NCBI GenBank assembly: GCA_027309085.1
Contig: DAIDDL010000004.1
Span: 1-64,000 of the forward strand
Direction: 5' to 3'
DNA length: 64,000 nt
Source: Sulfobacillus sp.
Lineage (GTDB): Bacteria > Bacillota > Sulfobacillia > Sulfobacillales > Sulfobacillaceae
Shown here in pieces: positions 18,901 through 60,559 of the stretch (position 1 is the first letter of the stretch; every line of letters starts with the position of its first letter). Both the position numbers and the translations under genes were made by a program. The notes below the pieces were generated by a model. That model searched no databases. It was not told the origin of the DNA and saw nothing but the letters and a program-made list of their open reading frames with translations.

Positions 18901-19065
18901 GAACGTCACCGAACTGCCCGGGTGAGCAATGATGGTTGAGGCCGATAGTGTAGCGGTCGGCGGGCTCTGGGCAAATACGGCTGCCGCTGGCGTCATGGAC
19001 AGCAAAAGCATCGAAGAACTCATCGCCAAGCCCAAAAGACCTCTTCCCAATTTCTTCGCAATCAA
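15949..19065 (-). CDS. Giant secreted Ig-like/YQFW-domain surface protein, paralogue 1
   Basis: 1038 residues with a clear signal peptide (charged start, then LLGLAMSSSMLLLSMTPAAA with cleavage after AVFA). Residues ~30-240 hold two YQFW modules (DPEYQFWVENPSGKW, NPLYQFWYETPSGVW). The rest is a series of Ser/Thr/Val-rich bacterial Ig-like (invasin Big_1-type) domains with recurring DAYGNPV, DSLGNAV and DGGGNPV turns. There is no visible LPXTG or SLH anchor. The TTG start follows GGGAGGG by 8 bases. The gene lies 51 bases after a ribbon-helix-helix gene on the same strand, likely one operon. Probable role is surface layer or adhesion; the exact function is unknown. Confidence 0.88.
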   Translation of the reverse strand: MIAKKLGRGLLGLAMSSSMLLLSMTPAAAVFAQSPPTATLSASTIIAHPGSSVTFTAATTNVTDPEYQFWVENPSGKWVDAQNYSSTNTFTLSNVQSGNYLVAVEVLTQYQVQHGLWQDALTPLADGVFVNSTVTLSAPSATVVKGQKVTVTATSTHIYNPLYQFWYETPSGVWEQSGNYSSSGTFSFTAAETGTYHLIAYAKSPLAVNDPEGALYSNELSQSVGTGVTAVTISGSSFIAAGASAQLTALATESGAAVTSPASVSWTVTSSNGTASGVSFTSPDSLSTAVTVPADDPGTYEVTATVDGVPSAPYAVVAYGETAAIRETASAPTVVADGMDTDTITATATDSLGNAVATYSGTATVHITGTAVTLAASPHQASDVSGNTVTFSHGVATFVVQAGQIPGASATVTLSGLTPEAGNTQSSSVSYGTVSLSTVPQSATSIAVVPQSSTVSVNQNAEPDSVSVTVDDQAGYPMLGGTYTLSAVVSGGASFTGSSVSQTVYASGDPAATSVTVYGAEGVMGTYVVTVSGSGLTTGTANIDAIITGVPTDLTASDSAPSFTEGAASGTTVTLGAADASGNTVALPSTVVPQVTITNTSGVAVTGMTLISGSGEVAAVSGSTYDFPAGTSSFAITDSSGQPDAGDYTVAIRNGESTAPLAPATLTVTELPGSPSTFTMSPVTNVLTPAHLSTELSLQVTDAYGNPVLDNAVPVSVSAAGSSGAASLNGGSYSASPATTVYTNASGAVEVLFSAQDYTGQWTITGTVAAGDIASGSLQDTKSVTLYVQNDPAASYDFSLEDVSTGTYDDNTQYAQAGDVVTLTPSLVSAGIDANSNPVSASVDGTDQVTATITHAPGLLGLPTSSTDGVEVSANSNGTETLTGTLNQVSTLLSSTTLTAGIAGETTVALVDHSTGAQGSAAIDIVPGTAPTQLAFTGLNNGESLSAATPYPVTVTLVDGGGNPVVASASQTVTLSASSGMTIENGSGVPISSVAIGAGESSAQFTVVTDQSPAFSNGAVNASDSPDDVSGAVTGLTD

Positions 19066-23594: not shown

Positions 23595-26486
23595 TTACCA
23601 ATTAATCGAACTGATAGCCGCACCGTTGGCCGGCGCATACTGAGTACCTGTACCCGTAAAGTACAGTTGCCCGTAATTAGACTCGCTGTAGCCAGTACCG
23701 TTATACGTGTACGCCGTAGAACTACCGGACGGAACCGCTCCAGTGGAAGGCTTCTCTGTGTACGCCGGTGCCGATGTATTACCATTCCACACGTCCAATG
23801 GACCACGTTGCAGTGTTAATGTCACTACACCGCTACTGTTGGAGTATACGGTGGTGCTGCTGGAACTAGCTCCACCCCACAAAACAACTCCAGGCACGGA
23901 TACATTATACAAAACTGAAGCACTGGACAAGGGAATTGGAGTCGCATATGCTACTCCAGACTGCGTGGTTGACAAGGCAATACCGTTAACCTGTGTAATC
24001 CACAGGCCCTCAGGCATGCTACCTTCGTTGATGGTGCTAGGCGCATCTCCAACAGGGTTACCATTTACGTCTTCAACAGTGTAGCTTACGGTTTGCGCTT
24101 GACCATTGGTCAGATCAACCACAGGAGCAAAATTCGCCGCCTGTGCAGCACTGTCACTCAAGACATTGACGGTCGCACTCGCTGGCGTCAAATTGCCAGA
24201 TCCAACGGTCAAAACAGTATTGCCAATTGCGCTGTCGTTTAATACCTCTACAGACAGTATCGGCGTAGCGGCAGACGGAGCCGTACCAGAGAAACCACCC
24301 GGCACCGACAACGTATAGGTTCCATTGTTGTCGTTAAGTGTAACGGTCAAGTCAGAAACCTGACTGTTCAACGGTACGGGTGCCGAACTCCCCACTCCCA
24401 GGGCATACACTACACCACTGTTGCCGACGGAAAGATTGTAAGTTACAGTCCCAGTGGCTAAGCTCGTCGATGTGACGGTCCCAAAGTAGAGTGGAGCTGA
24501 CGCTGTATCATATCCATCCTGAATGCCGGTTAGCGAAGTGACACCGCTCGTGTCAGTCGCTGCGTCTGCTTCGGTCGGAAAAGCATTGACAGCTGTTGCA
24601 ACGCTAGAGGTGCCAAACACTGCTGTAGCGCTGGTTATGAATCCAGCGGAAACAAAACCATTTTGAACAGGATATAGGTAGTAATTCACGTTACCCGTTG
24701 ACGTGTCCGTGACCTCAGCCGTGAATTGTCCCGCCGCGTTCGTTTGGATAGGGTCGCCGTAAGTTGTAGTTGCAGGTGCTCCAGCTGATCCAGTAGCCGG
24801 CCCTAATCCCGAGGCATTAACATCTGGAAAGTCAGTTGATGTTCCGCTCACAACATAGGCCCCGGTAGTCGCTGCAAGTAGCAGCTGTGCATTCGGCAGT
24901 GGATTCCCCTGGACATCCTCCACTACTCCAGACATCTCCACATCGGTCGCGGCTGCAACTGGTGAGGTAGCCGTAGAACTCGGAGTAATGGTGAAGTTGC
25001 TAATCGTTGACGCGATTCCGGGTTGAGACCACTCAACGTATGTGTCTAAACCAGATACGGATGGATCAGCCGTTGTTGCGCTAGCTGTCACTTTAACCGT
25101 TGACGGAGTAGCTGCATCTACGTATACCGTTGCCTGGCCAGCGCTAGTAGTATACACCGTCGCAACTGAGCCCAAGTTAGTGGTCCCAGACGCGTTCGTG
25201 AAGTAGCCACCGGTGGTGACGTCGAACGTAACGGGTAAATTAACCTGTGCCGTCGTGTTGACGGGAGGAAGAGTTACTGTAACGGGCACCACGCCACTGG
25301 TTCCAAGGGAAGCTTGGAACGCAGCACTTCCTGATGCCGGGTTATAAGGGGTAATTCCCGCCTGCCCGGCAGTAACAAATTCTGCATTGATAACCGGAGT
25401 TTCCACAGGCTGGTTGTTTACCTGGTAAGGAGCCTGGGCGTAAAGAGTGTACCCAGCTGTTTGCCCCACAGGGCCTGTAATCGTGATGCCAGCCTGTCCA
25501 GCCGCGTTGGTGTAAACTGTATAATCGGCTCCTGTTGAAGCCGCGGTAGACGAAAGAGCAACACCATCACTCATAACAGTCACAGGATCTGTCGGAGGCG
25601 CATTGTCCTGCGCAATGACATACGTAATGGCCGCACCTGGCGCGGGGTTACCATTGGCGTCTAACAGCGTCGTGGAGACAGCCATGGAGCCATTGTTGGT
25701 CATTAGATAAGGAGAAGCAGTTGTACCTGCCCCGGTCGTCTCGCCAGTGACGGTTAGTCCACTAATCGTGGGCTGTCCCACTGCGCTTTGTGCCGTTTCA
25801 GTTGGGCTATAAGATGCACCTTCTGGATTGTTTAGAGCCAAGGGAGACTTAGCGTATGCAATGAAAGTATAAGTTCCAGTCTCAGTTGGTGTGAATGTGA
25901 AGGTGCTTGAGCTCTGGTAATCGCCACTCTGGATCCACTGCCCATCAGGCGTTTTGTACCAGAACTGATACAGGGGATTGTAAATATTTGCAGCCGTGGC
26001 CGTAACAGTCATAGTCTGACCGGCCGTTGCTGCAGCGGTCGGCGTGGATAGGGTTACGGTCGAGTCAACGAAAACACCTTCAACATCCTGCAGGCCATTG
26101 GCTTCTGCGTTAGTCGCTGCAGAATAGTCTCCGGCTTTGAGGTTGGCTGCGCTCAGAACATATGCAGTTACCAAGTAATCACCGCTGGCAACATTGCTTA
26201 GAGTGTAGGTGTTGGTGCTCGAGTAGTTCTGGACATCTTTCCAAGAACCGTTTGGCTCTTCTACCCAGAATTGATACATAGGATCGGTGACGCCATTAGC
26301 GCTGGCGCTAAATGTTACACTGCCGCCGGGCTGTACTTTCGCGGCGATGTTGTTGTAGCCTTGTTCGGTCAATGTGATAGATGGTGCGGTTGCAGCAAAT
26401 GCACTGGCTGCTGGCAGCATAGACAAGATCAACATTGAAGAACCGATGGCAAGACCACTGACTTTTTTCATAACGTGTGATTTCAT
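23595..26486 (-). CDS. Giant secreted Ig-like/YQFW-domain surface protein, paralogue 2
   Basis: 963 residues with a signal peptide (KKVSGLAIGSSMLILSMLPA, cleavage after AFA). Residues ~30-240 carry two YQFW modules (DPMYQFWVEEPNGSW, NPLYQFWYKTPDGQW) that closely match paralogue 1, including YAKSPLA.N.PEGA.YS. Beyond that the proteins diverge into different Ig-like repeats, with VYTNAAGQAGITITG and VYSNSSGVVTLTL turns. It contains no sortase or SLH anchor that I can see. GAGGGGG lies 15 bases before the ATG; another methionine follows at residue 6. It is preceded by the second RHH gene and followed by a strong terminator, so the pair is one unit. Confidence 0.88.
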   Translation of the reverse strand: MKSHVMKKVSGLAIGSSMLILSMLPAASAFAATAPSITLTEQGYNNIAAKVQPGGSVTFSASANGVTDPMYQFWVEEPNGSWKDVQNYSSTNTYTLSNVASGDYLVTAYVLSAANLKAGDYSAATNAEANGLQDVEGVFVDSTVTLSTPTAAATAGQTMTVTATAANIYNPLYQFWYKTPDGQWIQSGDYQSSSTFTFTPTETGTYTFIAYAKSPLALNNPEGASYSPTETAQSAVGQPTISGLTVTGETTGAGTTASPYLMTNNGSMAVSTTLLDANGNPAPGAAITYVIAQDNAPPTDPVTVMSDGVALSSTAASTGADYTVYTNAAGQAGITITGPVGQTAGYTLYAQAPYQVNNQPVETPVINAEFVTAGQAGITPYNPASGSAAFQASLGTSGVVPVTVTLPPVNTTAQVNLPVTFDVTTGGYFTNASGTTNLGSVATVYTTSAGQATVYVDAATPSTVKVTASATTADPSVSGLDTYVEWSQPGIASTISNFTITPSSTATSPVAAATDVEMSGVVEDVQGNPLPNAQLLLAATTGAYVVSGTSTDFPDVNASGLGPATGSAGAPATTTYGDPIQTNAAGQFTAEVTDTSTGNVNYYLYPVQNGFVSAGFITSATAVFGTSSVATAVNAFPTEADAATDTSGVTSLTGIQDGYDTASAPLYFGTVTSTSLATGTVTYNLSVGNSGVVYALGVGSSAPVPLNSQVSDLTVTLNDNNGTYTLSVPGGFSGTAPSAATPILSVEVLNDSAIGNTVLTVGSGNLTPASATVNVLSDSAAQAANFAPVVDLTNGQAQTVSYTVEDVNGNPVGDAPSTINEGSMPEGLWITQVNGIALSTTQSGVAYATPIPLSSASVLYNVSVPGVVLWGGASSSSTTVYSNSSGVVTLTLQRGPLDVWNGNTSAPAYTEKPSTGAVPSGSSTAYTYNGTGYSESNYGQLYFTGTGTQYAPANGAAISSINW

Positions 26487-27116: not shown

Positions 27117-30100
27117 TCACTGCACGGTGAGAGTGTCCGTTGCCTTTACGGCATAGGCATTCGTGGCGGGCGCATCCGGATCTTTGGCGTACACGGTGAC
27201 AGTGTAGGTGCCTGCTGAATCGGGGGTGAACGCGTACTGGGCGCTCCCGTAAGCGCCGCTTGAGCTCCACTGGCCTGAAGGGGACTGGATCCAGAACTGG
27301 TATACCGGATCCGTCAGACCGGTGGCTTTGGCCGTCAAGGCAAACGGCGTTCCGGTTGACCCAGTCTGCGGCACGGTGAGGGCGACATGGCTAGCCACGT
27401 TGACCACCGCGGTGGAGTAAAACGCCTGCGAGAAGTCGTGGTGCTGGTATTGCTGGGCGTCTAATGCATAGACGGCCACCACGTAGGACCCGGGCTGCAG
27501 GCTCTGCAAGGTCCATGCATTTTGAGTGGAGAAATTTTTCACCATGGCCCACTGATTATTCGTGCCACGCACCCAGAATTGATACAGCGGTGTGCCCTGC
27601 GGGTCGGTGGCCTGTGCCTCGAAGGCGGCCGACTGCCCTGCGGATTGGAAAACCGCGGGGGCTTTGAGGCTCAGAGCGGAGACCATCGGTACCCCAGATG
27701 GGGCAGCGACAGCCACAGTCTGGGATACTGAGACCGGTGATGTGCTCAGTCCTTGGACATACACCTTGACCTGGTAGGCGCCAGGGACGGATGGGGTGAA
27801 GTGAAACTGGTTGCTACTCGCATATCCGCCCTGGGAATCGGTCCAGACGCCTGTCTGGGGGCTGCGGATCCAAAACTGATAACGCAAGGAGCTTGTGGCT
27901 CCGGTCGCTTGCGCGGTGACGGTTACCGGCTGCCCCACCGTCGGCGCCTTAGATGCGCTGAGGGTTACCGGGGCCTGCACTGCCACTGGCGGGGACGTAA
28001 CGGTCCATTCGGGGTTTTGCGTCACGGTGGCCGTGACCGTCTGGTTCCCAGCCGTGCCAAATGTCACCGCAAACTGCGCTTGGCCTTGGACCACGTTGAC
28101 CGAGGCTGGGAGCTTGGCCAGAGGGTCCGAACTGGCCAGAGTGACGGGGCCGGAAAAGGTTGGCACGGGATTGCCTTGGGCATCGATAGCGTCAAGCGTC
28201 CATGAGACCGGTGTGCCCAGGGTGGCTTCGGTGGGTGCATGGATCCACTGCAGCTGGCTGACGGGCGCGGGTTGCCATGCTTGCGCGAGCTGGTCCCACA
28301 GCGGCGCGCCTAATCCTGTCACTGGATTCCACGTGCCCGCAGTGGAACTGGTGACCTGGTAAAATCCGTTGCTGCCCCATAAAGCCTGCAAGAAGTCTTG
28401 AGGCTGGGATTTCGCAGTCTGAAAGAGCAGGGGGTTGATGTTGCCCAGGCCGCCTTGGATCCCGTCGGCGCTTTCCAAGTCGTCCAGCCAGCCAGCGGTC
28501 AGTGGCGCGGCCAGGCTGGTGCCGCCGAAGTCTACGGCAGAGCCGCTTACGACACCCTGAAACGAGGGCAGGCCAGCGAGAGAAGAAATGTCAGGGGCTC
28601 CCAGCCCGGTCGCCTGGGCAGGAAGCAGGGCGGTTTGCCAACTGGGCACTGGCGTGGATCCGAATCCACCCGACGATGCGTTGTTTTCAGCCAGGTACGC
28701 CTCCAGTGTGGGTGTGGGCAAACCATTCAGATAGTCGCCTCCCCATGCTTTGAGCACAGCCGGACCAGACAGACTGGTCATGGTGCCGCTGTTGTCAAAC
28801 GTGGCGGTGCCCGCCACGTTGAGACCTCCGACAGTCACCACCCCAGGCTGATCGTCGGGGGCGGGCAAGCCAAGGCTCGTGCCCGACACGCTCGCATAAG
28901 CGCCCCCGTCTCCGCTGGCAAAAACCAGCGTGATGCCTTCTGCAGTGCAGGCGTTCACCAGCGTGTTTAAGGTCGAGGCATTCTCCCCATAAAAGGCGTA
29001 GCTGACGGTCGCGATCTTTTGCGCATCATTTTGGGCCAGAAGCGCCAGAAATGCGGTCAGGGGGTCGGACGAATCACCCGTTGGATACACATAGTCCGCG
29101 ATCGGAGCGCCAGGGGCTGACGATGCCAACGCCTGCAGGTCGAGGTTGGGCTCAAGGCTGTTTGGTAAAAAAGAAGCTACAGTAGCCCCAGAGCTGGAAG
29201 AGCTGGTATCTGGGAAGGTGACGTTCGGCGTGGGAAGAGATTCTTGAGTCATCAGTGTCGACAAGTCGGGCAGGCTGGGCGTGGTGCCGATGGTCAGCAC
29301 GGCCACAGGCGCAGGAGTTGAGCCGAGAGCATCCTGATAGAGACTCCGGGCTCCCAATAACTGGCTAATCTGGAATCCGCCCAGCGGAAATAGGGCTGTT
29401 GCCGAACCAGTGAATTGCGGAAGCGGGAACGTAACTTTCTGCGTTGTGCCGTCCGTCAAGGTTACCGTGGCGGACAGGACATCCGGCTGGGAACTGGATC
29501 CAAAAGCCGCAAGCTCCAGTTGCCACAACGTGCCACTGCTGCCCGGAAAGGCTTGGCCATTGCCGTATGACCCGATGTTGTCCAACGTGTCCGTAACATC
29601 GGACACAGATTGTATCGCCAGCGGCTGACCGGCAGCCGTCTCGGCCGCCAAGACGATATTGAACGGGAGACCAGCCGCAAGGTGAGAGGTAATACCCGGA
29701 TTAAAACTCATCGCGGTGAAAACATCTCCGTTGGACGCTGAAACGCTTTGTGCCAGCACTGGCGCCTGAGCGAAGGCATAGGGAGCTAAAGAGGATGCAG
29801 AAGTGGTCAGATCTGGACGGATGGTCGCATCCGCCTTGGGTAGTTTTTGCAGAGGGCGGAGCACTGACGTTTGCGGGGCCGTGATATGGACGGCTGATAG
29901 TCCATCTACCGCGTACAAAGCCGGGGCTACGGGGATTTTGACGGCAGATCCAGATGGCACCTGTGCCGTTATTGTCAGGGCTGTGTGTCCTAATATGCGC
30001 CATCCCGCCGCCTGCAAAGCCTGGCGCACCTGCGCCGCAGCTAAAGCAGAAGGGCCGAATTTACGGTCGAGTGCTGCGGGGCTCAAGAAGTGGTGATATA

Positions 30101-30389
30101 GAGGAGATCCTTGCGTGCTGACGGCGTCTGCATACTCTTGCAGCGCGGCGGCGCGCTTCGGCGTATCAACGACTACGGTGACCCGCCGGGATTTGAGCGT
30201 AAGGGCCGCGTGCTCGAAAGCTGGCAATTCGGTGCGGTAAAAAGGTGTGGACGGCATTTGGGTATGATTCAGTGCCTTTACGGATACGGCATAGGCCACC
30301 GGTGGTGAGGCGGCGCGGCTGATTCCTGAGCTCACTAGCGGCAACCCCAGAGCAACGGAAAACATAACGGACATCAGACGGATCTTCAC
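27117..30389 (-). CDS. Secreted kumamolisin/sedolisin (S53) protease with C-terminal YQFW repeats
   Basis: About 1090 residues. A signal peptide is followed by a pro-kumamolisin domain (LYHHFLSPAALDRKFGPS). An unusual ~130-residue beta-rich stretch comes before the catalytic domain. The S53 catalytic residues are present, counted from my start: Glu413 and Asp417 in EPNLDLQ, Asp494 in ASGDGG, Ser625 in GGTSLAAP. The C-terminal calcium-site segment NPVTGLGAPLWDQL is kept. Three YQFW modules follow to the end. Sedolisins are acid-active endopeptidases. I prefer the GTG at 30389, 7 bases after AAAGGAG, to the GTG at 30395. Confidence 0.92.
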   Translation of the reverse strand: MKIRLMSVMFSVALGLPLVSSGISRAASPPVAYAVSVKALNHTQMPSTPFYRTELPAFEHAALTLKSRRVTVVVDTPKRAAALQEYADAVSTQGSPLYHHFLSPAALDRKFGPSALAAAQVRQALQAAGWRILGHTALTITAQVPSGSAVKIPVAPALYAVDGLSAVHITAPQTSVLRPLQKLPKADATIRPDLTTSASSLAPYAFAQAPVLAQSVSASNGDVFTAMSFNPGITSHLAAGLPFNIVLAAETAAGQPLAIQSVSDVTDTLDNIGSYGNGQAFPGSSGTLWQLELAAFGSSSQPDVLSATVTLTDGTTQKVTFPLPQFTGSATALFPLGGFQISQLLGARSLYQDALGSTPAPVAVLTIGTTPSLPDLSTLMTQESLPTPNVTFPDTSSSSSGATVASFLPNSLEPNLDLQALASSAPGAPIADYVYPTGDSSDPLTAFLALLAQNDAQKIATVSYAFYGENASTLNTLVNACTAEGITLVFASGDGGAYASVSGTSLGLPAPDDQPGVVTVGGLNVAGTATFDNSGTMTSLSGPAVLKAWGGDYLNGLPTPTLEAYLAENNASSGGFGSTPVPSWQTALLPAQATGLGAPDISSLAGLPSFQGVVSGSAVDFGGTSLAAPLTAGWLDDLESADGIQGGLGNINPLLFQTAKSQPQDFLQALWGSNGFYQVTSSTAGTWNPVTGLGAPLWDQLAQAWQPAPVSQLQWIHAPTEATLGTPVSWTLDAIDAQGNPVPTFSGPVTLASSDPLAKLPASVNVVQGQAQFAVTFGTAGNQTVTATVTQNPEWTVTSPPVAVQAPVTLSASKAPTVGQPVTVTAQATGATSSLRYQFWIRSPQTGVWTDSQGGYASSNQFHFTPSVPGAYQVKVYVQGLSTSPVSVSQTVAVAAPSGVPMVSALSLKAPAVFQSAGQSAAFEAQATDPQGTPLYQFWVRGTNNQWAMVKNFSTQNAWTLQSLQPGSYVVAVYALDAQQYQHHDFSQAFYSTAVVNVASHVALTVPQTGSTGTPFALTAKATGLTDPVYQFWIQSPSGQWSSSGAYGSAQYAFTPDSAGTYTVTVYAKDPDAPATNAYAVKATDTLTVQ

Positions 30390-30785
30390 GGGCACGCTCC
30401 TTTGCTAACCATAGAATCATCATCTATGACAAAAATACGAGGTAAAGGGCAACATTCCTTCAGCAACTTTTCGACTGGGGCATCCTCAATGCGCTCAATA
30501 ACTCGCGCAAGCGTATAACTAATTTTGCCATTAACAGCACGGGTAGACAACCACTGGGGTTATACGGTAACATCACAGCGAAGCGATACATGATTCGCCG
30601 GATCTTATTACCTGGCGACAATCTAGCATGACTGAGTGGCTCAACGTTTGTTAAACAGTTCGTGCTGAGGTTGGTGTAGCCTACGGCTATGGACGGTGCA
30701 TAATTTTTAGAACAGCTGTTTGATTAAATAATGAGCACGTTGGCGTCTATCCTTTCTTTTCTTGTGATGACCCTGGAGGTATATG
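30390..30785. other. Divergent promoter region, protease and TPR lipoprotein
   Basis: 396 bases hold the promoters of two divergent genes. I see an imperfectly supported small inverted repeat TAGCC-TAC-GGCTA at 30677-30689 and A+T-rich stretches before the lipoprotein, but no certain promoter or gene. Confidence 0.35.
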
Positions 30786-52317: not shown

Positions 52318-55300
52318 TTACTTCTTCACTCCCTCTTGTCTCCGTCCCACCGCATGAAAAGTCCACTGCGGAGGCATATCCGTGGCCTTCACCCTTCTGC
52401 CGTCTGAAGACAGCGTAAATGCCAGTCCCGGGGTCAAGGGAATCGTTTCAATCGTAAAGGCCCCTAACGAGTCTGGGGGGGTGGCCAGGCAGCGGATGGT
52501 GCGCTGCCTGGCATCGATCTCCAAGCCTAGCAGAGTCTGCACCAAGTGCAGCGGAGCTGCCGAGGCCCAGGCCTGCGGCGCGCAGGCTTCCGGATAGGGG
52601 ACGGGTTCTTGCTGGGCGCTGCTCTCGCCGGCAAATAGCTCGGGCAGGCGGAACCAGGGAAAGCGGGACGCCGCCCGCATCAGGGACAGGGCCAGTTCCA
52701 GAGCCTGAGAGGTGGCGCCTGCGGCTTGCAGCCCGGCTGCCACCAGACTGGTGTCATGGGGCCAGACACTGCCGCGGTGATAGCTGTAGGGATCGTAAGC
52801 GCTCTGGCTGGCCGCGAGAGTCCTGATGCCCCAGCCTGAATACAAATCCGGCGATAGCAAGGCATCCGCCACCATTTGGGTCTTGGCCTGCGGCACAATG
52901 CCTGACCACAGGCACTGTCCGGGATCAGAAGTCATAGCATCGACTGCCCGGCCCTGGCCGTCCACCGCCAGGGCGTAATACTGCTGGTCCGGCATCCAAA
53001 AGAGCGCGTCAAACTGCTTTTTCAGCTTGGCAGCCCGGCGCTCCAGCGCCTTCGCTTCCGGAGCATTGCCTGCAGCGCGGTAGTATTCCGCCATCGCCCG
53101 AAAAGCCCGGTAGACATACCCTTGCACCTCCGCCACCGCCAGAGGCGGGGCGGCGTGGTCGCCATTGGCAAACACCATGGAATCCGAAGAATCTTTCCAC
53201 GACTGCACGGCCAGACCTTGGGAGGAGCGCGGAGAGAAGCTGATAAGCCCCCAGCGGTTGCGGTCTTGAGCTTGAATCAGCCAGCCGAGCGCCCGCTCGG
53301 CGGACGGCAAAAGACGCGCCATCAGCCCATCGTCCCCCGTGCGCCGCCAGGTATCCACCAGCAAGCCCAAAAACAGCGGGGTCACATCCACTGAGCCGTA
53401 GTAGCGGGCAAAGGGCACCTCTCCCGTGCGGGCCATTTCTCCGAGACGGATTTCGTGAACCATTTTTCCGGGTTCTTCCTCGGTTTCTGCGATATCCTGC
53501 GTCCCCTGCCACGCCGCCAGCGTACTGAGCGTATGATACGCCCAGGCCGGGGCCCACGCCAGCACCTGATAGGAGGCGATGATGGCGTCACGGCCGAAGA
53601 ACGTGCCGAACCACGGGATCCCCGCCATGGGCACCACGCCGTGGCCGTAATTGGTGGCCAGCATTTCCATGTCCGCGCACGAACGGTCCGTGACATTTTG
53701 CCAGGGCTGGTGCGCCCACTCAAAGCGGGGGAAGGACATCGTCTCTTCGCGCACTGATGGTATGTTCAACTCCGGCACAGGGTTGTCCCACACCGCCTTA
53801 AGAGTAATGCTCCCCGCTCCTTCTTCCTCCCCTATGGGCCATTCCCACTGTCCGCTGGCGTTGTCTTCAGCTGGACGGGAAGACTGCAGAACCACCTGCC
53901 TTGCCACTCCGTCCAGTCCCTCGTACCGGTAGCGCGCTTCTGTGGCGCTGCGGCTGACGGTTTTGCTTCCCGCCCGCCTGCGCACCGATCCCCGCAGCTC
54001 AAAGATGTCGGTGAAATCCGCGTCAAAAGCTAAAGACAGCGTCCACGGCTCCGCCGTCCCGTAATGGCGCCAAGACCAGTGGTCCTCCAGCCCCTGGGGC
54101 GACAGCCGCAGCGTGCGCATGACGAACCGGGTCATCCCGGAATGCTGGAAGACGTAGCGCGCACTCAGAGAATTCGCCGTCACCCGCATCGCCAGAGGCG
54201 CTGGCACCGCGCTGTCAATCCGCCACTGATAGGTCGACACCATCCGGGTATCGTACAGGTAGATCCCCTGGCGCAGCGAATCCGCTTCAATGCGGCCGGC
54301 CGTTGACAGCACCGCAAAAGCCGCCCCCGCCTTGAGCACTGGCTCCTGGGGATTCGTCCTCGGCGTCTGGTACACCGCCGGCACCCCGGTGGACTCCCTC
54401 ACCCGCAGCACCGGGCGCACCCGCTCGCACAGCACATCCTCGCCGGTGATGCGGCTGATCAGCATGGCGGCCAGGCGCTCTCCCGCCTGCACCAAATCAT
54501 GCTCCACCGTCGTCAGTGGAGGAGACGCATGCCTGCCGGCCACCTCGTTGCCAAACCCGACCACAGAAAGCTGGCGGGGCACGTGAATACCGATGTCGCC
54601 CGCGCACTGCAAAGCCCCCATCGCCACGGCGTCGCTGACCGCGAAAATAGCGGAAGGGCGCCCCGGCGCCGTCAACAGACTATACGTCCGCTCATAGCCG
54701 CTCTGCACGGTCATAGGACCCAAGACCGCCCACGGTTCAATCTGGTGAGCCGCCAGCACCTCTTCGTAGCCCTCACGTCTCTGGTGTGCGGCCAGACACA
54801 TGTCCGGTCCGGCCAAGTGGACAATGCGCTGGTGGCCCAGCTCCACCAGGTGCTCAGTGGCCAGCACGGCCCCCCTTTTGTTGTCCGTGTTGTACCACGT
54901 GCAGGCCTCCGGCTCCGCCCCGTAAACCACGCAAGGCACCCGCTCGTCCTGCAGGATCTGGACCGCTCCTTCCAGATCCGCATCATAAATCAGCACCACC
55001 CCGTCGACGCGGTGTGAGCGGGCAATGCCCTCCAGATAGGCACCGATATCCTGGGAGCCTTCCGGGGCCAGCACCATCAGGTGGTAGCCGGCGTGCTGGC
55101 ACGCCGCAATCAGCCCCGACAGCAGAGGCGAGGGCAGCGTACCCGCCCGCGCCATGGACTCGGGCACCACCACCCCAATGGTTTCGGACTGCCCCCGCAC
55201 CAGAAACCGTCCTTGGGCGCTCGCATGGTAGTGCAGAGTTTTCGCAGCCTGGCGAACCCGCTCCGCTGTTTCAAATGAAATGTTGCCGCGGTTGTTGAGA

Positions 55301-55380
55301 ACGTATGAGACCGTGGCCGTCGACACCCCCGCCAGTTTGGCCACATCGCCAATGCGGCTGGGACGGAATTTCTCCGGCAA
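52318..55380 (-). CDS. LacI-family regulator fused to a glycogen-debranching-type glycosidase
   Basis: 1020 residues without an internal stop. Residues ~8-60 are a LacI helix-turn-helix (IGDVAKLAGVSTATVSYVLN). Residues ~65-330 are the periplasmic-binding-type sensor (IGVVVPES, DGVVLIYDA, PSAIFAVSDAVAMGAL, LSVVGFGNE). From ~345 an amylo-alpha-1,6-glucosidase N-terminal domain begins (VLKAGAAFAVLSTAGRIEAD, GIYLYDTRMVS). The (alpha/alpha)6 catalytic domain follows from ~560 (GIPWFGTFFGRDAIIA, EVPFARYYGSVDVTPLFLGL, SWKDSSDSM). It would bind DNA and a sugar and also hydrolyse or debranch oligosaccharide. It is divergent from a sugar ABC operon. A GTG at 54384 (residue 333) preceded by GAGGGAG could give a separate enzyme. 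Confidence 0.93.
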   Translation of the reverse strand: MPEKFRPSRIGDVAKLAGVSTATVSYVLNNRGNISFETAERVRQAAKTLHYHASAQGRFLVRGQSETIGVVVPESMARAGTLPSPLLSGLIAACQHAGYHLMVLAPEGSQDIGAYLEGIARSHRVDGVVLIYDADLEGAVQILQDERVPCVVYGAEPEACTWYNTDNKRGAVLATEHLVELGHQRIVHLAGPDMCLAAHQRREGYEEVLAAHQIEPWAVLGPMTVQSGYERTYSLLTAPGRPSAIFAVSDAVAMGALQCAGDIGIHVPRQLSVVGFGNEVAGRHASPPLTTVEHDLVQAGERLAAMLISRITGEDVLCERVRPVLRVRESTGVPAVYQTPRTNPQEPVLKAGAAFAVLSTAGRIEADSLRQGIYLYDTRMVSTYQWRIDSAVPAPLAMRVTANSLSARYVFQHSGMTRFVMRTLRLSPQGLEDHWSWRHYGTAEPWTLSLAFDADFTDIFELRGSVRRRAGSKTVSRSATEARYRYEGLDGVARQVVLQSSRPAEDNASGQWEWPIGEEEGAGSITLKAVWDNPVPELNIPSVREETMSFPRFEWAHQPWQNVTDRSCADMEMLATNYGHGVVPMAGIPWFGTFFGRDAIIASYQVLAWAPAWAYHTLSTLAAWQGTQDIAETEEEPGKMVHEIRLGEMARTGEVPFARYYGSVDVTPLFLGLLVDTWRRTGDDGLMARLLPSAERALGWLIQAQDRNRWGLISFSPRSSQGLAVQSWKDSSDSMVFANGDHAAPPLAVAEVQGYVYRAFRAMAEYYRAAGNAPEAKALERRAAKLKKQFDALFWMPDQQYYALAVDGQGRAVDAMTSDPGQCLWSGIVPQAKTQMVADALLSPDLYSGWGIRTLAASQSAYDPYSYHRGSVWPHDTSLVAAGLQAAGATSQALELALSLMRAASRFPWFRLPELFAGESSAQQEPVPYPEACAPQAWASAAPLHLVQTLLGLEIDARQRTIRCLATPPDSLGAFTIETIPLTPGLAFTLSSDGRRVKATDMPPQWTFHAVGRRQEGVKK

Positions 55381-55607
55381 ATCTTTTCACCTCTTTGGTT
55401 AATCGCTTCACTTAAACGATTGAATTATAATGAACACCATGCCATAATACTAGGAGTTTTCAGTATTCACTATGTAATCACACACATCCATCCGACTGCG
55501 GGCGGCAAGACATCTTTCCGCCCGCAGCCGCCAGCGCGCAGATTCGGCAGCCATTGTCCATCAATTCCATTATACTGCCGCGCTCTTGAGAAGATAGGAG
55601 GTACCAT
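55381..55607. promoter_or_regulatory. Divergent control region of the oligosaccharide locus with candidate LacI operator
   Basis: AATCGCTT, CACTT, AAACGATT at 55401-55421 is an imperfect palindrome (7 of 8 arm positions match) of LacI type. A -10-like TATAAT occurs on the plus strand at 55426-55431 and on the minus strand at 55429-55424. The palindrome thus lies over the likely +1 of the LacI-fusion gene and next to the plus-strand promoter, where a repressor could control both. No clear -35 boxes are seen. Confidence 0.6.
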
Positions 55608-56882
55608 TTGACTATGCCAAGACAGGTTCGCCGCCGCTCTCTCGCCTTGCTCAGCGGGGCCGGTTTGCTCCTGACCATCGCGGGCTGCGGTTCCGCACCC
55701 GCCGCATCCGGTCCGCACAATGTGACCATCGTCTTTGCCAGCCAGGGCCTGGGCACTGAAGCGCAGGCCACTCAAGCCGCCGTCAACTCTTTTGAGAAGC
55801 TCCACCCCCATATTCATGTGCAAATAGAAACCTTATCCGCTTCCTCCAATGATGCCTACCAGACCCTGATTACCGACCTGACTTCCGGTTCCGGCACCCC
55901 CGACGTGATTACCGCCGACGTCATCTGGCCAGCCACGTTTGCCGCCGCGAAATGGATCCTGCCCCTCAACCAGTTCCATCCGGACACCAGCCGCTTCTAC
56001 CAGGGGATGGTCAAGTCCGGGGAATACCAGGGCAAGCTCTACGCCATGCCCTGGTTCATCAACGTGGAAGGGCTGTATTACCGCACCGACCTGGTGAAAA
56101 CTCCCCCGGCCACTTTTGCCCAGCTCACCTCCGATGCCAAGTCTGCGATGAAGAATAATTCCAAGCTTACCGGTCTGGCCTTTGAGGGCAACAAATACGA
56201 AGGGGCGGTCACCGTCTTCCAGGACATCTCCGGCGGATTTGGCGGGGAATTCCTCAATGCCCAGGGCAAGCCTGTGCTCAATTCTCCCCAAAACATCAAA
56301 GCCCTGACCTGGCTCAACAACGCCATCAAAACCGGGATATCACCCGCAGCCGTGACAGGCTGGGAAGAAGGCAATGTGCAGCAGGCCTTCCTGTCCGGGG
56401 ACGCTGTCTTTGCCACCAACTGGCCATATCTGTACCCACTGGCCGAAGCTTCCGGATCCGCCGTGAAGGGAAAAGTCGCGTTTGTGCCCACCCCCGTCGA
56501 CGGCGGACAGGCCACGGCCTCTTTAGGGGGAGATGACCTCGTCATCAACAAGAACACCAAATACCCCAAGCAGTCGTGGGAACTGGTGCAGTATCTCACG
56601 TCCGCCAAGACCATGACGGCCCGGGCGCTGATTTCGGGAGACCCTCCTGCCCGCACCGATGCGTATACCCCTGCACTGTTGCAAAAAGCGCCCTGGTTCA
56701 AGCAGGAGGAAGCCGTTTACGCCGACGCCACCCCACGCCCGGTGACGCCCCTGTACCCGCAGATCTCGGCGCAGATCCAAGAAGCGCTGTCCGCGACCTA
56801 CTCCGGCCAGCTCACTCCCACCAAGGCGCTGGACCAGGCGCAGAAGGCCGTGGAGGCCATTGTGAGCGGCCATGGCAGCTAA
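55608..56882 (+). CDS. ABC transporter sugar-binding lipoprotein (family 1 solute-binding)
   Basis: 424 residues with a twin-basic signal ending in lipobox TIAGC. After the anchor, VTIVFASQGLGTEAQATQAA and LITDLTSGSGTPDVITADVIW follow the extracellular binding protein family 1 pattern, with FLSGDAVFATNWPYLYPLA near 265. The tethered protein captures an oligosaccharide outside the membrane. AGGAGG lies 7 bases before a TTG at 55608, and an ATG follows two codons on; the TTG is the better spaced. It is the first gene of a four-gene operon. Confidence 0.93.
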   Translation: MTMPRQVRRRSLALLSGAGLLLTIAGCGSAPAASGPHNVTIVFASQGLGTEAQATQAAVNSFEKLHPHIHVQIETLSASSNDAYQTLITDLTSGSGTPDVITADVIWPATFAAAKWILPLNQFHPDTSRFYQGMVKSGEYQGKLYAMPWFINVEGLYYRTDLVKTPPATFAQLTSDAKSAMKNNSKLTGLAFEGNKYEGAVTVFQDISGGFGGEFLNAQGKPVLNSPQNIKALTWLNNAIKTGISPAAVTGWEEGNVQQAFLSGDAVFATNWPYLYPLAEASGSAVKGKVAFVPTPVDGGQATASLGGDDLVINKNTKYPKQSWELVQYLTSAKTMTARALISGDPPARTDAYTPALLQKAPWFKQEEAVYADATPRPVTPLYPQISAQIQEALSATYSGQLTPTKALDQAQKAVEAIVSGHGS

Positions 56883-57825
56883 ACCTCAGATAGGGCCGTC
56901 CCTCGGGACGGCCTCCCCCCGTCCCCGCCGCCGCCGTTCGTATATGGCTTCGCGGTCCCGGGTCGGATATCTGCTGGTTTTGCCCGCGGTGGCGGCCCTG
57001 GCCGCCATCGCCATCTATCCCCTGATTTACAACATTGTCCTGTCCTCCCGGTTCGACGTTCTGACCGAACCGGGCACAGGGCATTTCACGGGACTGGCCA
57101 ACTACCGGCAGATGCTGACCGACCCTAATTTCTGGGGGGATTTGGGCCGCACAGGCATTTTCATGGTCATCTCCGTCACCTTGGAGTTCGCCGCAGGGCT
57201 GATTCTCGCCCTTATTGTGCACCGGGAGTTCAAAGCCCGGGGACTGGTGCGAGCCTCCATCCTGATTCCCTGGGCTATTCCCACAGCGGTGTCAGCCCTC
57301 TTGTGGAAAATGTTCTTTGACATCCGCTCCGGCTTCGTCGATTTTGCCCTCAAGGCCCTGCACCTGCCGGGGGCCAATCTGGTCTGGTTCAATTCCCCGG
57401 TGCTGGCCTGGGTCCCCATCATCCTGAGTGACATGTGGAAGAACACCCCGTTCATCGCGCTCCTTTTGCTGGCGGGACTGCAGACCATCCCCCAGGAGAT
57501 TTATGAGAGCGCGCGCATTGACGGGGCCACCGGCTGGCAGGCATTCTGGTCCATCACCCTGCCCCTTTTGCGCCCGGCGGTCATGGTGGCCTTAATCTTC
57601 CGCACATTAAGCGCCATGCTCGTCTTTGACACCATCTTCGTCATGACCGGGGGCGGTCCCGGCCAGAGCACCGAAGTCGTGGCCTACTACGACTGGTACA
57701 AATATATGGTGTCCTTGAACTTTGGATTTGGAGCGGCCGTGGCCGTGGCCATTACCGTGCTAGCCCTGATCCTGGCGACCGTCTATGTCAGGCTGCTGCG
57801 CCAGCGGGGAGGATTCATGACATGA
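56872..57825 (+). CDS. Sugar ABC transporter permease, MalF/UgpA type
   Basis: 317 residues with six membrane helices and the permease EAA loop YESARIDGATGWQAFWSITL, where it contacts the ATPase. MTGGGPGQSTEVVAYY is a further MalF-family hallmark. It overlaps the end of the binding-protein gene by 11 bases. It forms half of the membrane channel for oligosaccharide uptake. An arginine-rich N-terminus (RPRRRRS) faces the cytoplasm. Confidence 0.94.
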   Translation: MAAKPQIGPSLGTASPRPRRRRSYMASRSRVGYLLVLPAVAALAAIAIYPLIYNIVLSSRFDVLTEPGTGHFTGLANYRQMLTDPNFWGDLGRTGIFMVISVTLEFAAGLILALIVHREFKARGLVRASILIPWAIPTAVSALLWKMFFDIRSGFVDFALKALHLPGANLVWFNSPVLAWVPIILSDMWKNTPFIALLLLAGLQTIPQEIYESARIDGATGWQAFWSITLPLLRPAVMVALIFRTLSAMLVFDTIFVMTGGGPGQSTEVVAYYDWYKYMVSLNFGFGAAVAVAITVLALILATVYVRLLRQRGGFMT

Positions 57826-58649
57826 GACAACGCATGGGTCGCACCGGATTCAATGCCTTAGTCGCCATCATCATCTTGTATTCCCTGTTTCCCTTCTACT
57901 GGGTCTTCAAATCCTCGGTCGAGTCTTCGATTGCCCTCAACCGGCAAACCTCGAGTCTGTGGCCGACCAACTGGACCTTTGTGCATTACGAGGCCATTTT
58001 CGCTGTGGAGAACTTTCTGCGGCCGCTGTTGAACAGCATGTTTGTGGCGGGCATGGCCACCCTCATCTCAGTGGTGCTGGGCTCGATGGCGGCTTACGGC
58101 CTGTCCCGCATGCCGATCAAGGGCAAGGTCCCCATTTTGGGCTTCATTCTCTTGGTCTCCTTCTTCCCCCAGATTGCCATGGTCGGGCCGCTGTTTCTGG
58201 TCTTCCGCCACCTGCACTGGCTGAACACGTATCAGAGCCTGATTTTTCCCTATCTGATCTTGTCCCTGCCCATCACCACCTGGATTCTGACCGCATTCTT
58301 CAGCCAGATTCCCGCAGACATTGAAGAAGCCGCCATGATGGACGGGGCCACCATCACCCAGACCATCACCCGGGTGTTTGCCCCCATTGCCATGCCCGGG
58401 ATCTTCACGGCGGCGATCCTCGGATTTCTGCTGTCCTGGAATGACTTTCTGTTCGCGCTCTCCTTCATCCAAACGCCCAACATGGATACGGTGCCGCTGG
58501 CCTTGGTCAATTTCCGCAATGCGTACTACGTCCACTACGGGCAAATCTATGCCGGCGTGGTCATCGCCTCCTTGCCGATTGCGCTGATTGTGCTTTTCTT
58601 GCAAAAGCGCATCGAGTCGGGACTGACAGCCGGCAGCGTCAAAGGGTAG
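57822..58649 (+). CDS. Sugar ABC transporter permease, MalG type
   Basis: 275 residues with six membrane helices, YSLFPFYWVFKSSVES at the start, and the EAA loop EEAAMMDGATITQTITRVFA. The ATG shares ATGA with the MalF stop. It pairs with the preceding permease. No ATPase gene is present in the operon, so the importer would rely on a shared MsmX/UgpC-like ATPase encoded elsewhere (known for Gram-positive sugar importers; inferred here). Confidence 0.94.
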   Translation: MRQRMGRTGFNALVAIIILYSLFPFYWVFKSSVESSIALNRQTSSLWPTNWTFVHYEAIFAVENFLRPLLNSMFVAGMATLISVVLGSMAAYGLSRMPIKGKVPILGFILLVSFFPQIAMVGPLFLVFRHLHWLNTYQSLIFPYLILSLPITTWILTAFFSQIPADIEEAAMMDGATITQTITRVFAPIAMPGIFTAAILGFLLSWNDFLFALSFIQTPNMDTVPLALVNFRNAYYVHYGQIYAGVVIASLPIALIVLFLQKRIESGLTAGSVKG

Positions 58650-58762
58650 AGCAAATGCCCGCCCGTTTCATCTGGACCACGGCCACATGCCGTGGTCCAG
58701 CCATCTTCCTAGAGGAACCCGGAAAAATATTCCACAGCAGAAAGGCAGGATGCACCATTACG

Positions 58763-60559
58763 ATGAAACCGTTCTATGCCCTCTTGGGAAATGGAGTGAC
58801 GTCCGCCTTAGCCGGTCCCACAGGCGCGGTCGACTGGTGGCCCGTGCCGCGGTTTGACGGGCCCACCATCTTCAGCCGCTTGCTGGATCACCATGCCGGA
58901 GGCTACTTGAGCCTGGAGCCGGAGCACTGGACAGCGGTCACCCAGCGCTACCGTCCCGAAGGGCTGTTCCTGGAAACTGCGTTTGCCTGCGACCAAGGCG
59001 CGGCCACTGTCACCGTAGGGCTCGAAGTCGGCCGCAACGCCCTGTGGCTGACAGCCAGCAGCACCGCGCCCCTCATCCTGACATGCCGCCCCAGCTTCGA
59101 TTACGGGGTGGTGCGCCCGTCTTTTGTGCCGGTGCCCCACGGCATGCGCTACATCAATCCCCTAGGGCCGGGGCAGGCCTCTCTTTTGATCCAGGGACCG
59201 GCCGATCTGATCGACCGGATGGACCAGTGGCGCTGCGGTCCGGGGTCCATCACCGTGGTCTTCCGGGTATTGATGGAATCCAAACCCGACCTGCGCTGGC
59301 TGTCCGCCCCCATCGGGGCCGACGCTGCGCGCATCTGGGCCAAGTCGGCCCCATTCTGGACCGTGTCCAAAACCTCAGAAGCGGCGGGCGAGCCTGTCCG
59401 CCGCAGTCTGCAGATTATCAAAGGGCTCACCTTCCGGCCGACCGGCGCCCCGGTGGCGGCCGCCACCACATCCCTGCCGGAGGCGCCCGGGGAGGCCCGG
59501 CAGTGGGACTACCGCTATGTGTGGGTCCGCGACAGCGCTTACAGCGGGGAATCCTTGCTGTTGGCCGGCAATGTGGTGGATGCCAGGCGGATTGCCGAAT
59601 TCCTGCTCAACAGCGTCATGCTGAACGGGCGCGTGTACTCCGCTCCCTTTCTGCGGGTGGACGGCACCGTGCCCGAGCGCGAACAGGACCTGCTGTGGCT
59701 CAGAGGCTATGAGCAGACCCGTCCCGCCCGCGCCGGCAACGGCGCGATTTCCCAACGGCAGCTGGACCTGGTGGGCAGCGTGCTCTGGCTCGTGTACCGC
59801 ATCTGGCAGGAGACGCACGATGACGCTTTTATCGACACCTACTGGTGGGCCATCGCCGCTTTAGGCGACTGGGCCCAGAAAACTTGGCACCAGCTCGATG
59901 CGTCGCTGTGGGAATACCGGACTATCCGCGGCCAGCATACCCATTCCCGCATGATGAACTGGCTGGGACTGAAAGTCGCGTCCGAAATGGCTGGCCGCGC
60001 CAGGCATGATGACGTCACCGCCAGGCGCTGGAGTGAGGCCGCCGCGAAAATCGCCAGCGTCTTGTGGGGCGAGGCCCAGCTGGCGGGGTCATTTCTGCCC
60101 CGCTCCACAGGGGGCATCCCCGATGCCGCCCTCCTCACCCTGCCCCTTTACGGCTTCGTGTCCGTGCATGATCCCTATTTTGCCACGACGCTGCAGACCA
60201 TTGAGCGGGACCTGGTCGACGACGGCCTGGTGTACCGCTACCGCGCCGATGACCTGGGCAAGGCCCGGTACCCTTTCCTGCTGGTGGGATTCTGGTACGC
60301 CCGCATACTGCTGCGGCAAGGGCGGCACCAGGAAGCTCAGAGAGTGATTCAGCGCCACCTGGACCAAGCTACCCCGCTCGGACTCTACGGCGAGCACACC
60401 GACGAGAAGATGGGCACCGTGCGCGGCAATTTCCCCCAGCTCTTTTCCCACAGCGCCCTCGTCACCACCCTGATGGAACAGCAGCGGATCGAAAAAGGCC
60501 TGCCGCTGGCCGAACAGGACTTTCTGGCATCCCCCGGCCGATTTGCCGCTGGAACGTAA
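58763..60559 (+). CDS. Glycoside hydrolase family 15 (glucoamylase/trehalase-like)
   Basis: 598 residues from the ATG at 58763, where the family begins (KPFYALLGNGVTSALAGPTG, DWWPVPRFDGPTIFSRLLD); the frame upstream to 58655 is not typical. The catalytic acid region SLWEYRTIRGQHTHSRMMNW and the base region LYGEHTDEKMGTVRGNFPQL each keep the glutamate, and QWDYRYVWVRDSAYS and NGAISQRQLDLVG are conserved. There is no signal peptide, so it acts in the cytoplasm on imported glucan, maltodextrin or trehalose. It is the last gene of the import operon, 113 bases after the permease. Confidence 0.92.
   Translation: MKPFYALLGNGVTSALAGPTGAVDWWPVPRFDGPTIFSRLLDHHAGGYLSLEPEHWTAVTQRYRPEGLFLETAFACDQGAATVTVGLEVGRNALWLTASSTAPLILTCRPSFDYGVVRPSFVPVPHGMRYINPLGPGQASLLIQGPADLIDRMDQWRCGPGSITVVFRVLMESKPDLRWLSAPIGADAARIWAKSAPFWTVSKTSEAAGEPVRRSLQIIKGLTFRPTGAPVAAATTSLPEAPGEARQWDYRYVWVRDSAYSGESLLLAGNVVDARRIAEFLLNSVMLNGRVYSAPFLRVDGTVPEREQDLLWLRGYEQTRPARAGNGAISQRQLDLVGSVLWLVYRIWQETHDDAFIDTYWWAIAALGDWAQKTWHQLDASLWEYRTIRGQHTHSRMMNWLGLKVASEMAGRARHDDVTARRWSEAAAKIASVLWGEAQLAGSFLPRSTGGIPDAALLTLPLYGFVSVHDPYFATTLQTIERDLVDDGLVYRYRADDLGKARYPFLLVGFWYARILLRQGRHQEAQRVIQRHLDQATPLGLYGEHTDEKMGTVRGNFPQLFSHSALVTTLMEQQRIEKGLPLAEQDFLASPGRFAAGT

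Follow-up and report, generated by a model that had tools for sequence, protein, structure and literature searches.

A predicted LacI-type repressor fused to an amylo-alpha-1,6-glucosidase-type enzyme beside a sugar-import operon in Sulfobacillus

LacI is the textbook sugar-sensing regulator, a protein separate from the enzyme that consumes the sugar. In the DNA analysed here (the window: 64,000 nucleotides of a Sulfobacillus sp., assembly GCA_027309085.1, contig DAIDDL010000004.1, positions 1 to 64,000), a single gene appears to encode both, which raises the questions of whether repressor and enzyme really form one chain, what this chain would control and how it would sense sugar. The minus-strand frame from 55380 to 52318 comprises 1020 uninterrupted codons and begins with a TTG start codon, 7 nt upstream of which lies the sequence AGAGGTG. 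The gene and its parts are as follows:

52318 to 55380, minus strand: fused gene, LacI-GDE (repressor-glucosidase), 1020 aa (frame, Pfam, PDB, homologues, AlphaFold2 model)
55388 to 55394 (plus-strand numbering), minus strand: Shine-Dalgarno sequence AGAGGTG for the TTG start (sequence)
55222 to 55353, minus strand: LacI-family helix-turn-helix (HTH), residues 10-53, with TVSYVLN and Tyr at LacI position 22 (PF00356, 59.8 bits, cut-off 27)
54376 to 55197, minus strand: LacI core, a periplasmic-binding-like domain, residues ~62-335 (PF13377, 108 bits; VIA-align Z 32)
54340 to 54375, minus strand: short interdomain linker, residues ~336-347, with an in-frame AGGAGCCAGTG at its end, at V348
53746 to 54339, minus strand: GDE_N_bis beta domain, residues ~348-545 (Pfam PF14742, 87 bits; AlphaFold2 model)
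52513 to 53718, minus strand: (alpha/alpha)6 glucosidase catalytic domain, residues ~555-956 (PF06202, 39.7 bits; 7vma; AlphaFold2 model)
53191 to 53193, minus strand: Asp730 in WKDS, putative general acid (invariant in 27 fusions and 7vma)
52639 to 52641, minus strand: Glu914 in PELF, putative general base (invariant in 27 fusions and 7vma)

All domains score above their Pfam cut-offs and follow one another in the order LacI HTH (residues 10-53), LacI core (Peripla_BP_3, 175-331), GDE_N_bis (349-515) and GDE_C/MGH1-like (α/α)6 domain (MGH1-like_GH/GDE_C, 676-942). A search of the PDB divides the chain in two, with residues 6-339 matching many LacI, PurR and RbsR chains and residues 351-956 matching the glucosidase 7vma (303 bits). 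An AlphaFold2 model of the fusion, built from 27 fused homologues, reached a mean pLDDT of 86 and a pTM of 0.74. The sequence-only reading had described a LacI regulator and an amylo-alpha-1,6-glucosidase-type enzyme in a single frame, and the frame, Pfam, the PDB and about 30 fused loci bear this out.

The LacI half is, to judge from its HTH, hinge Leu and core, an ordinary member of the LacI/GalR family. Its modelled core superimposes on the ancestral LacI 9nt3 with a Z of 32 (VIA-align), and Leu60, which corresponds to the minor-groove Leu of the hinge helix (LacI L56), is found in every fused sequence covering that site. The enzyme half can likewise be predicted to be an ordinary prokaryotic member of the amylo-α-1,6-glucosidase type: 610 residues of the model align with 7vma at 2.1 Å (Z 53.2), and the active-site motifs around Asp730 and Glu914 are invariant among 27 fusions and common to 7vma, the role of Asp730 being assigned by comparison with the catalytic acids of GH133/GH63 enzymes. 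The term "glycogen debranching" used in the sequence-only reading goes too far, as the fusion has just the GH133/GH63-like glucosidase half (GDE_N_bis plus GDE_C/MGH1-like); a Pfam scan of the fusion found no 4-alpha-glucanotransferase domain, and the protein is therefore not a debranching enzyme of the eukaryotic type.

The fusion is not restricted to this genome. Full-length open frames of fused homologues, free of internal stops, are present in 17 of the 42 genomes of the order (the window's own included), in some of them twice; two more genomes of the order carry incomplete copies, one a fragment at a contig end (G009) and the other a split copy (G004, S. thermotolerans Kr1). Among 154 genomes of the class, additional fusions were found in G523 and G524 and a fragment in G495. 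A scan of named genomes with an alignment query yielded about 30 fused loci in both MAGs and isolates, including S. benefaciens, S. thermotolerans (split) and many Bacillota MAGs. The search for the same two-part architecture that the sequence-only reading had called for turned it up in about 30 loci of the class and a few other MAGs. The fused homologues, at 36-63% identity, occur in the genus, family, order and class of the window and in a few other MAGs; many acid-dwelling relatives of Sulfobacillus keep the joined form. In a sample of 398 genomes of the phylum (E <= 1e-80), the fusion was seen only in the window's own family, and the remaining genomes have the enzyme alone or beside a separate lacI. 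A sequencing error that joined two genes at the junction is ruled out by the conservation of the fusion in about 30 loci. The main fused clade (clade A) comprises about 25 divergent sequences with one common frame, and the mean identity within it is 59% for the HTH, 56% for the catalytic domain and 37% for the LacI core.

The main fused clade also contains four MAGs with the title Actinomycetes bacterium (L078, L080, L085 and L089), which cluster together beside Bacillota; this reflects either gene transfer or mis-binned or mis-named MAGs. Two sets of candidates were rejected: the LacI in a 963-aa open frame at L060 begins at residue 634 and is accompanied by no other domain, and the open frames of 1099-1111 aa in G026 and G028 come from a class search that reads through stops (three TGA and one TAA in G026), the actual ORFs being 732-733 aa long and unfused. 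Plasmid records matched the enzyme part alone, with no match covering 80% of the query, and a PADLOC run gave no match.

What would such a protein control? As the sequence-only reading had noted, the gene lies opposite a sugar-import and GH15 operon, and the four genes concerned are indeed divergent at 55608-60559:

55608 to 56882, plus strand: ABC sugar-binding protein (SBP) (ORF, domain searches)
56872 to 57825, plus strand: ABC permease 1 (ORF, domain searches)
57822 to 58649, plus strand: ABC permease 2 (ORF, domain searches)
58655 to 60559, plus strand: GH15 alpha-glucosidase/trehalase-like protein (NCBIfam archaeal TreH1, 518 bits, under its cut-off of 820)

Most members within the genus of the window have their transporter operon in divergent orientation, at 80-96% identity. 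Outside the genus, the fusion is the first gene ahead of a different SBP-permease-permease set (25-35% identity), and almost all clade-A fusions whose flanks could be read have SBP or permease genes as neighbours. Elsewhere in the window, a HipA-like kinase (PF20613; 60775-61698, minus strand) is located close to the GH15 operon, and three proteins of very large size whose starts resemble secretion signals (15949-19065, 23595-26486 and 27117-30395, minus strand) share, by eye, a repeated motif of about YQFW....P.G.W with an Ig-like look.

The intergenic region between the fused gene and the operon contains two predicted operators and a promoter-like site:

55397 to 55412, no strand: operator 1, GGTTAATCGCTTCACT (operator scoring, predicted)
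55410 to 55425, no strand: operator 2, ACTTAAACGATTGAAT, 13 bp from operator 1 (operator scoring, predicted)
55420 to 55448, plus strand: sigma-70-like promoter of the divergent operon, TTGAAT-17-CATAAT with TG before the second hexamer (consensus match only)

A 16-bp CG-centred palindrome, approximately AGTKAADCGHTTMACT, is located upstream of every clade-A fusion examined and scores well above the shuffled maximum; the nine sites that seeded the matrix, two of them from the window, match by construction, and most other loci were unseeded. The predicted operators are flanked by the ribosome site of the fused gene on one side and by the divergent promoter-like site, which operator 2 overlaps, on the other. 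Tandem operators exactly 13 bp apart are predicted at 13 loci including the window, and L083 and L114 have weaker operator neighbours with the same spacing. At this distance there seems to be too little room for two ordinary dimers next to each other. Loci with pairs of this kind, which overlap by 3 bp, include L067, L068, L069, L070, L072, L073, L075, L077, L092 and L093. When the 4.5-Mb genome was scanned with a strict IUPAC pattern of the operator, three places matched, two of them inside unrelated ORFs; the only intergenic match is the fused locus. This near-uniqueness is as expected for a local regulator and argues against a global one. The operator resembles generic LacI/CcpA-type sites, and another LacI-family protein could use it. 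Overall, the fusion seems to be autoregulated and co-produced with the importer.

The reading that we consider probable is that of one bifunctional, autorepressing repressor-glucosidase, which controls its own gene and the divergent SBP-permease-permease-GH15 operon. Bound as a dimer to the tandem operators (55397-55425), the fusion would repress both itself and the operon, since these sites lie a short way ahead of its start codon and also overlap the likely promoter of the divergent transporter genes. Once an alpha-glucosidic oligosaccharide has been imported, this sugar or one of its products would relieve repression and lead to the production of more fusion protein, whose enzyme part would hydrolyse the imported sugar together with the GH15 enzyme. 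Enzyme dose, transporter and repressor dose would thus rise and fall together in a circuit of negative autoregulation. The sequence itself provides the fusion and its conservation, an intact HTH and intact catalytic residues, the predicted operators and the linkage to an ABC sugar transporter; DNA binding, catalysis, dimerisation, the identity of the inducer and the direction of the switch are what we infer. The loss of the Asp274 equivalent from the LacI pocket of the window protein (see below) speaks against the bifunctional reading, as does the S. thermotolerans Kr1 copy (CP019454, G004, L069; 70-71% identical), which has a frameshift, located within the LacI core and not at the junction. 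This frameshift, at about 6702-6843 of L069, stands in a complete genome and is either real decay or a sequencing error.

How repression would be relieved is less clear from the residues of the LacI core. Asp274 is an essential inducer contact of LacI. Two positions of this pocket are of interest in the window protein:

54550 to 54552, minus strand: Gly277, at the position of LacI Asp274, a canonical inducer contact that is missing here (alignment to LacI)
54778 to 54780, minus strand: Arg201, the equivalent of LacI Arg197, kept here and lost in about three related lineages (alignment to LacI)

The pocket was mapped against E. coli LacI, whose numbering was verified at eleven known positions. 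The Asp274 equivalent is retained in 16 of 30 fused proteins and that of Arg197 in 21 of 30 (approximate counts, as a few rows are gap-shifted or partial), compared with all 13 adjacent unfused LacIs for both residues and, among other LacIs of the same family, 23 of 28 for Asp274 (27 of 28 if Asn is counted) and 28 of 28 for Arg197. In close relatives of the window protein, the 246/247 pair and Arg197 have been lost as well. A tree of the GDE part only requires a minimum of four changes at Asp274 and three at Arg197, and its starred branches force at least two of the Asp274 changes. The lineages that lost pocket residues have retained their operators and every catalytic residue. Two related stand-alone LacIs, L006 (own genome, C107:164-1099) and L082:4677-5705, likewise carry Gly in place of Asp274 and are devoid of Asp247; here the pocket has changed in unfused proteins, which makes a second such case.

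These residues bear on the self-resetting switch proposed in the sequence-only reading, in which an oligosaccharide is the inducer of the LacI core and the attached enzyme destroys this same inducer. The part that places repressor and enzyme in one chain is the best reading, given the intact HTH and catalytic residues, the operators and the linkage to a sugar operon; the part in which the oligosaccharide lifts repression via the LacI pocket is not supported for a protein with Gly277 in place of Asp274, and normal induction is therefore doubtful in the window protein. Substitutions of R197 leave E. coli LacI on its operator and render it non-inducible (PMC4632034), which weighs on the sister lineages without this Arg. 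Furthermore, the switch assumes that inducer and enzyme substrate are one compound. However, Arg197 and Asp274 are not both required in every LacI-family protein, and about half of the fusions retain both equivalents, so that these lineages may plausibly sense sugar in the classical way; there, a loop in which sugar frees the repressor and is then consumed by the enzyme and GH15 is a fair hypothesis. As a general account, the self-resetting switch is possible but less likely than not. The window lineage, to judge from its pocket residues, must sense differently: through a different ligand, a weakened pocket, some other form of relief or the enzyme domain.

A plainer alternative is that a stop codon was lost between lacI and gde and that the joined protein behaves as the two proteins did apart. 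Adjacent unfused pairs are common in sugar operons of Bacillota: the order lacI-gde-SBP-permease-permease is found in Tumebacillus, Alicyclobacillus, Alkalicoccus and others, with open frames that sometimes overlap, and a paralogous unfused lacI-gde locus is present on contig C144 of the window's own genome. Such pairs suggest how a fusion of this kind can arise. In the GDE tree, clade A (26 rows, support 100) adjoins solo enzymes including those of Trueperaceae and Spirochaetota, and the unfused enzymes closest to it are located at the far end of operons in these two groups and not beside lacI, which speaks against a neutral operon fusion. A second group of fusions, clade B, consists of near-identical copies from high-GC Bacillota MAGs (L088:3-3020 and L094:5995-9123) and falls among Bacillota enzymes in the GDE tree, apart from clade A; in the LacI tree, both clades group together with weak support (67). 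Two fusion origins are thereby suggested, and a single origin is compatible with the AU test, which did not reject it (p 0.162). L094 lacks the operator of the main clade, and L088 starts at a contig end. Within clade A, the LacI and GDE trees give the same subclades, as is expected if both parts are inherited together. The long-kept joined form, the possible second origin and the concentration of pocket loss in the fusions suggest an altered constraint, and a neutral fusion is, on this evidence, unlikely.

It is also conceivable that, in lineages with an eroded LacI pocket, substrate bound in the glucosidase active site, or contacts between the domains, would release the DNA, with the LacI core acting just as a dimerisation or allosteric bridge. 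The repeated loss of Asp274 and Arg197 in the fused clade, set against none among the 13 adjacent unfused LacIs and near-complete retention in the same-family controls, and the conservation of operators and catalytic residues in the pocket-losing lineages are in line with this idea; however, a lost pocket could just as well mean that another small ligand is bound, that the repressor is constitutive or that dilution relieves repression. That the enzyme serves as the sensor is accordingly quite improbable as matters stand, and the same degree of doubt attaches to the corresponding history, in which sensing moved after fusion from the LacI pocket to the glucosidase active site and the pocket then decayed independently in several lineages.

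Equally improbable is that the fusion is cut, or that translation of the enzyme can also begin at an internal site near residue 348, giving separate parts: the window has AGGAGCCAGTG in frame at V348 and clade B a strong in-frame GGAGGAG...ATG at the start of the enzyme, likely a relic of the separate gene, but neither start codon nor ribosome site is conserved in clade A, where the V348 codon reads GTT, CGC, GTC, ACA or AGC, and dual products from a conserved internal start were rejected.

If the bifunctional repressor-glucosidase exists as proposed, the repeated loss of sensing residues with operator and active site kept would amount to a natural experiment in the transfer of the sensing role of a transcription switch to an enzyme, and self-limiting sugar biosensors could be built on the fusion as a ready scaffold.

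With LacI/GalR repressors such as LacI, PurR, RbsR and CelR, the fusion shares the HTH, the hinge Leu56 equivalent, the core fold and a CG-centred palindromic operator; it differs in its extension into a 670-residue enzyme, in Tyr at position 22 and in the loss of the Asp274 equivalent here. The enzyme-like part of BzdR reportedly functions as an effector-binding module. Enzyme-regulator fusions and trigger enzymes are represented by BzdR (PMC3602430), which likewise carries a DNA-binding and an enzyme-derived domain in one chain; in contrast to BzdR, the present fusion unites a full LacI core with a complete hydrolase of predicted enzyme activity. The amylo-α-1,6-glucosidase of Thermococcus gammatolerans STB12 (7vma), an active enzyme of solved structure (PMC9142091), has the same GDE_N_bis and (alpha/alpha)6 domains at 31% identity, with WKDS and PEL[FY] in both proteins, but stands alone without a DNA-binding part. 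The GC domain of the eukaryotic glycogen debranching enzyme, whose activity requires Asp1241 and Glu1492 in CgGDE, is an (alpha/alpha)6 glucosidase domain of the same kind (PMC4837477), and the eukaryotic enzyme additionally possesses the glucanotransferase half. The closest parallels in gene content are the adjacent lacI-gde-SBP-permease operons of Alicyclobacillus, Tumebacillus, Alkalicoccus and the C144 locus of the own genome, which have the same genes in the same order; unlike the fusion, they encode two proteins, keep all LacI pocket residues, and their enzymes lie on a separate branch. A search of open-licence literature found no description of a LacI-glycoside hydrolase fusion. Regulator-enzyme fusions as such are already known and the parts themselves are ordinary members of their families; what appears to be new is that a sugar-family repressor and a hydrolase, both complete, are joined in one chain, a form retained across a large part of a bacterial order and also outside it.
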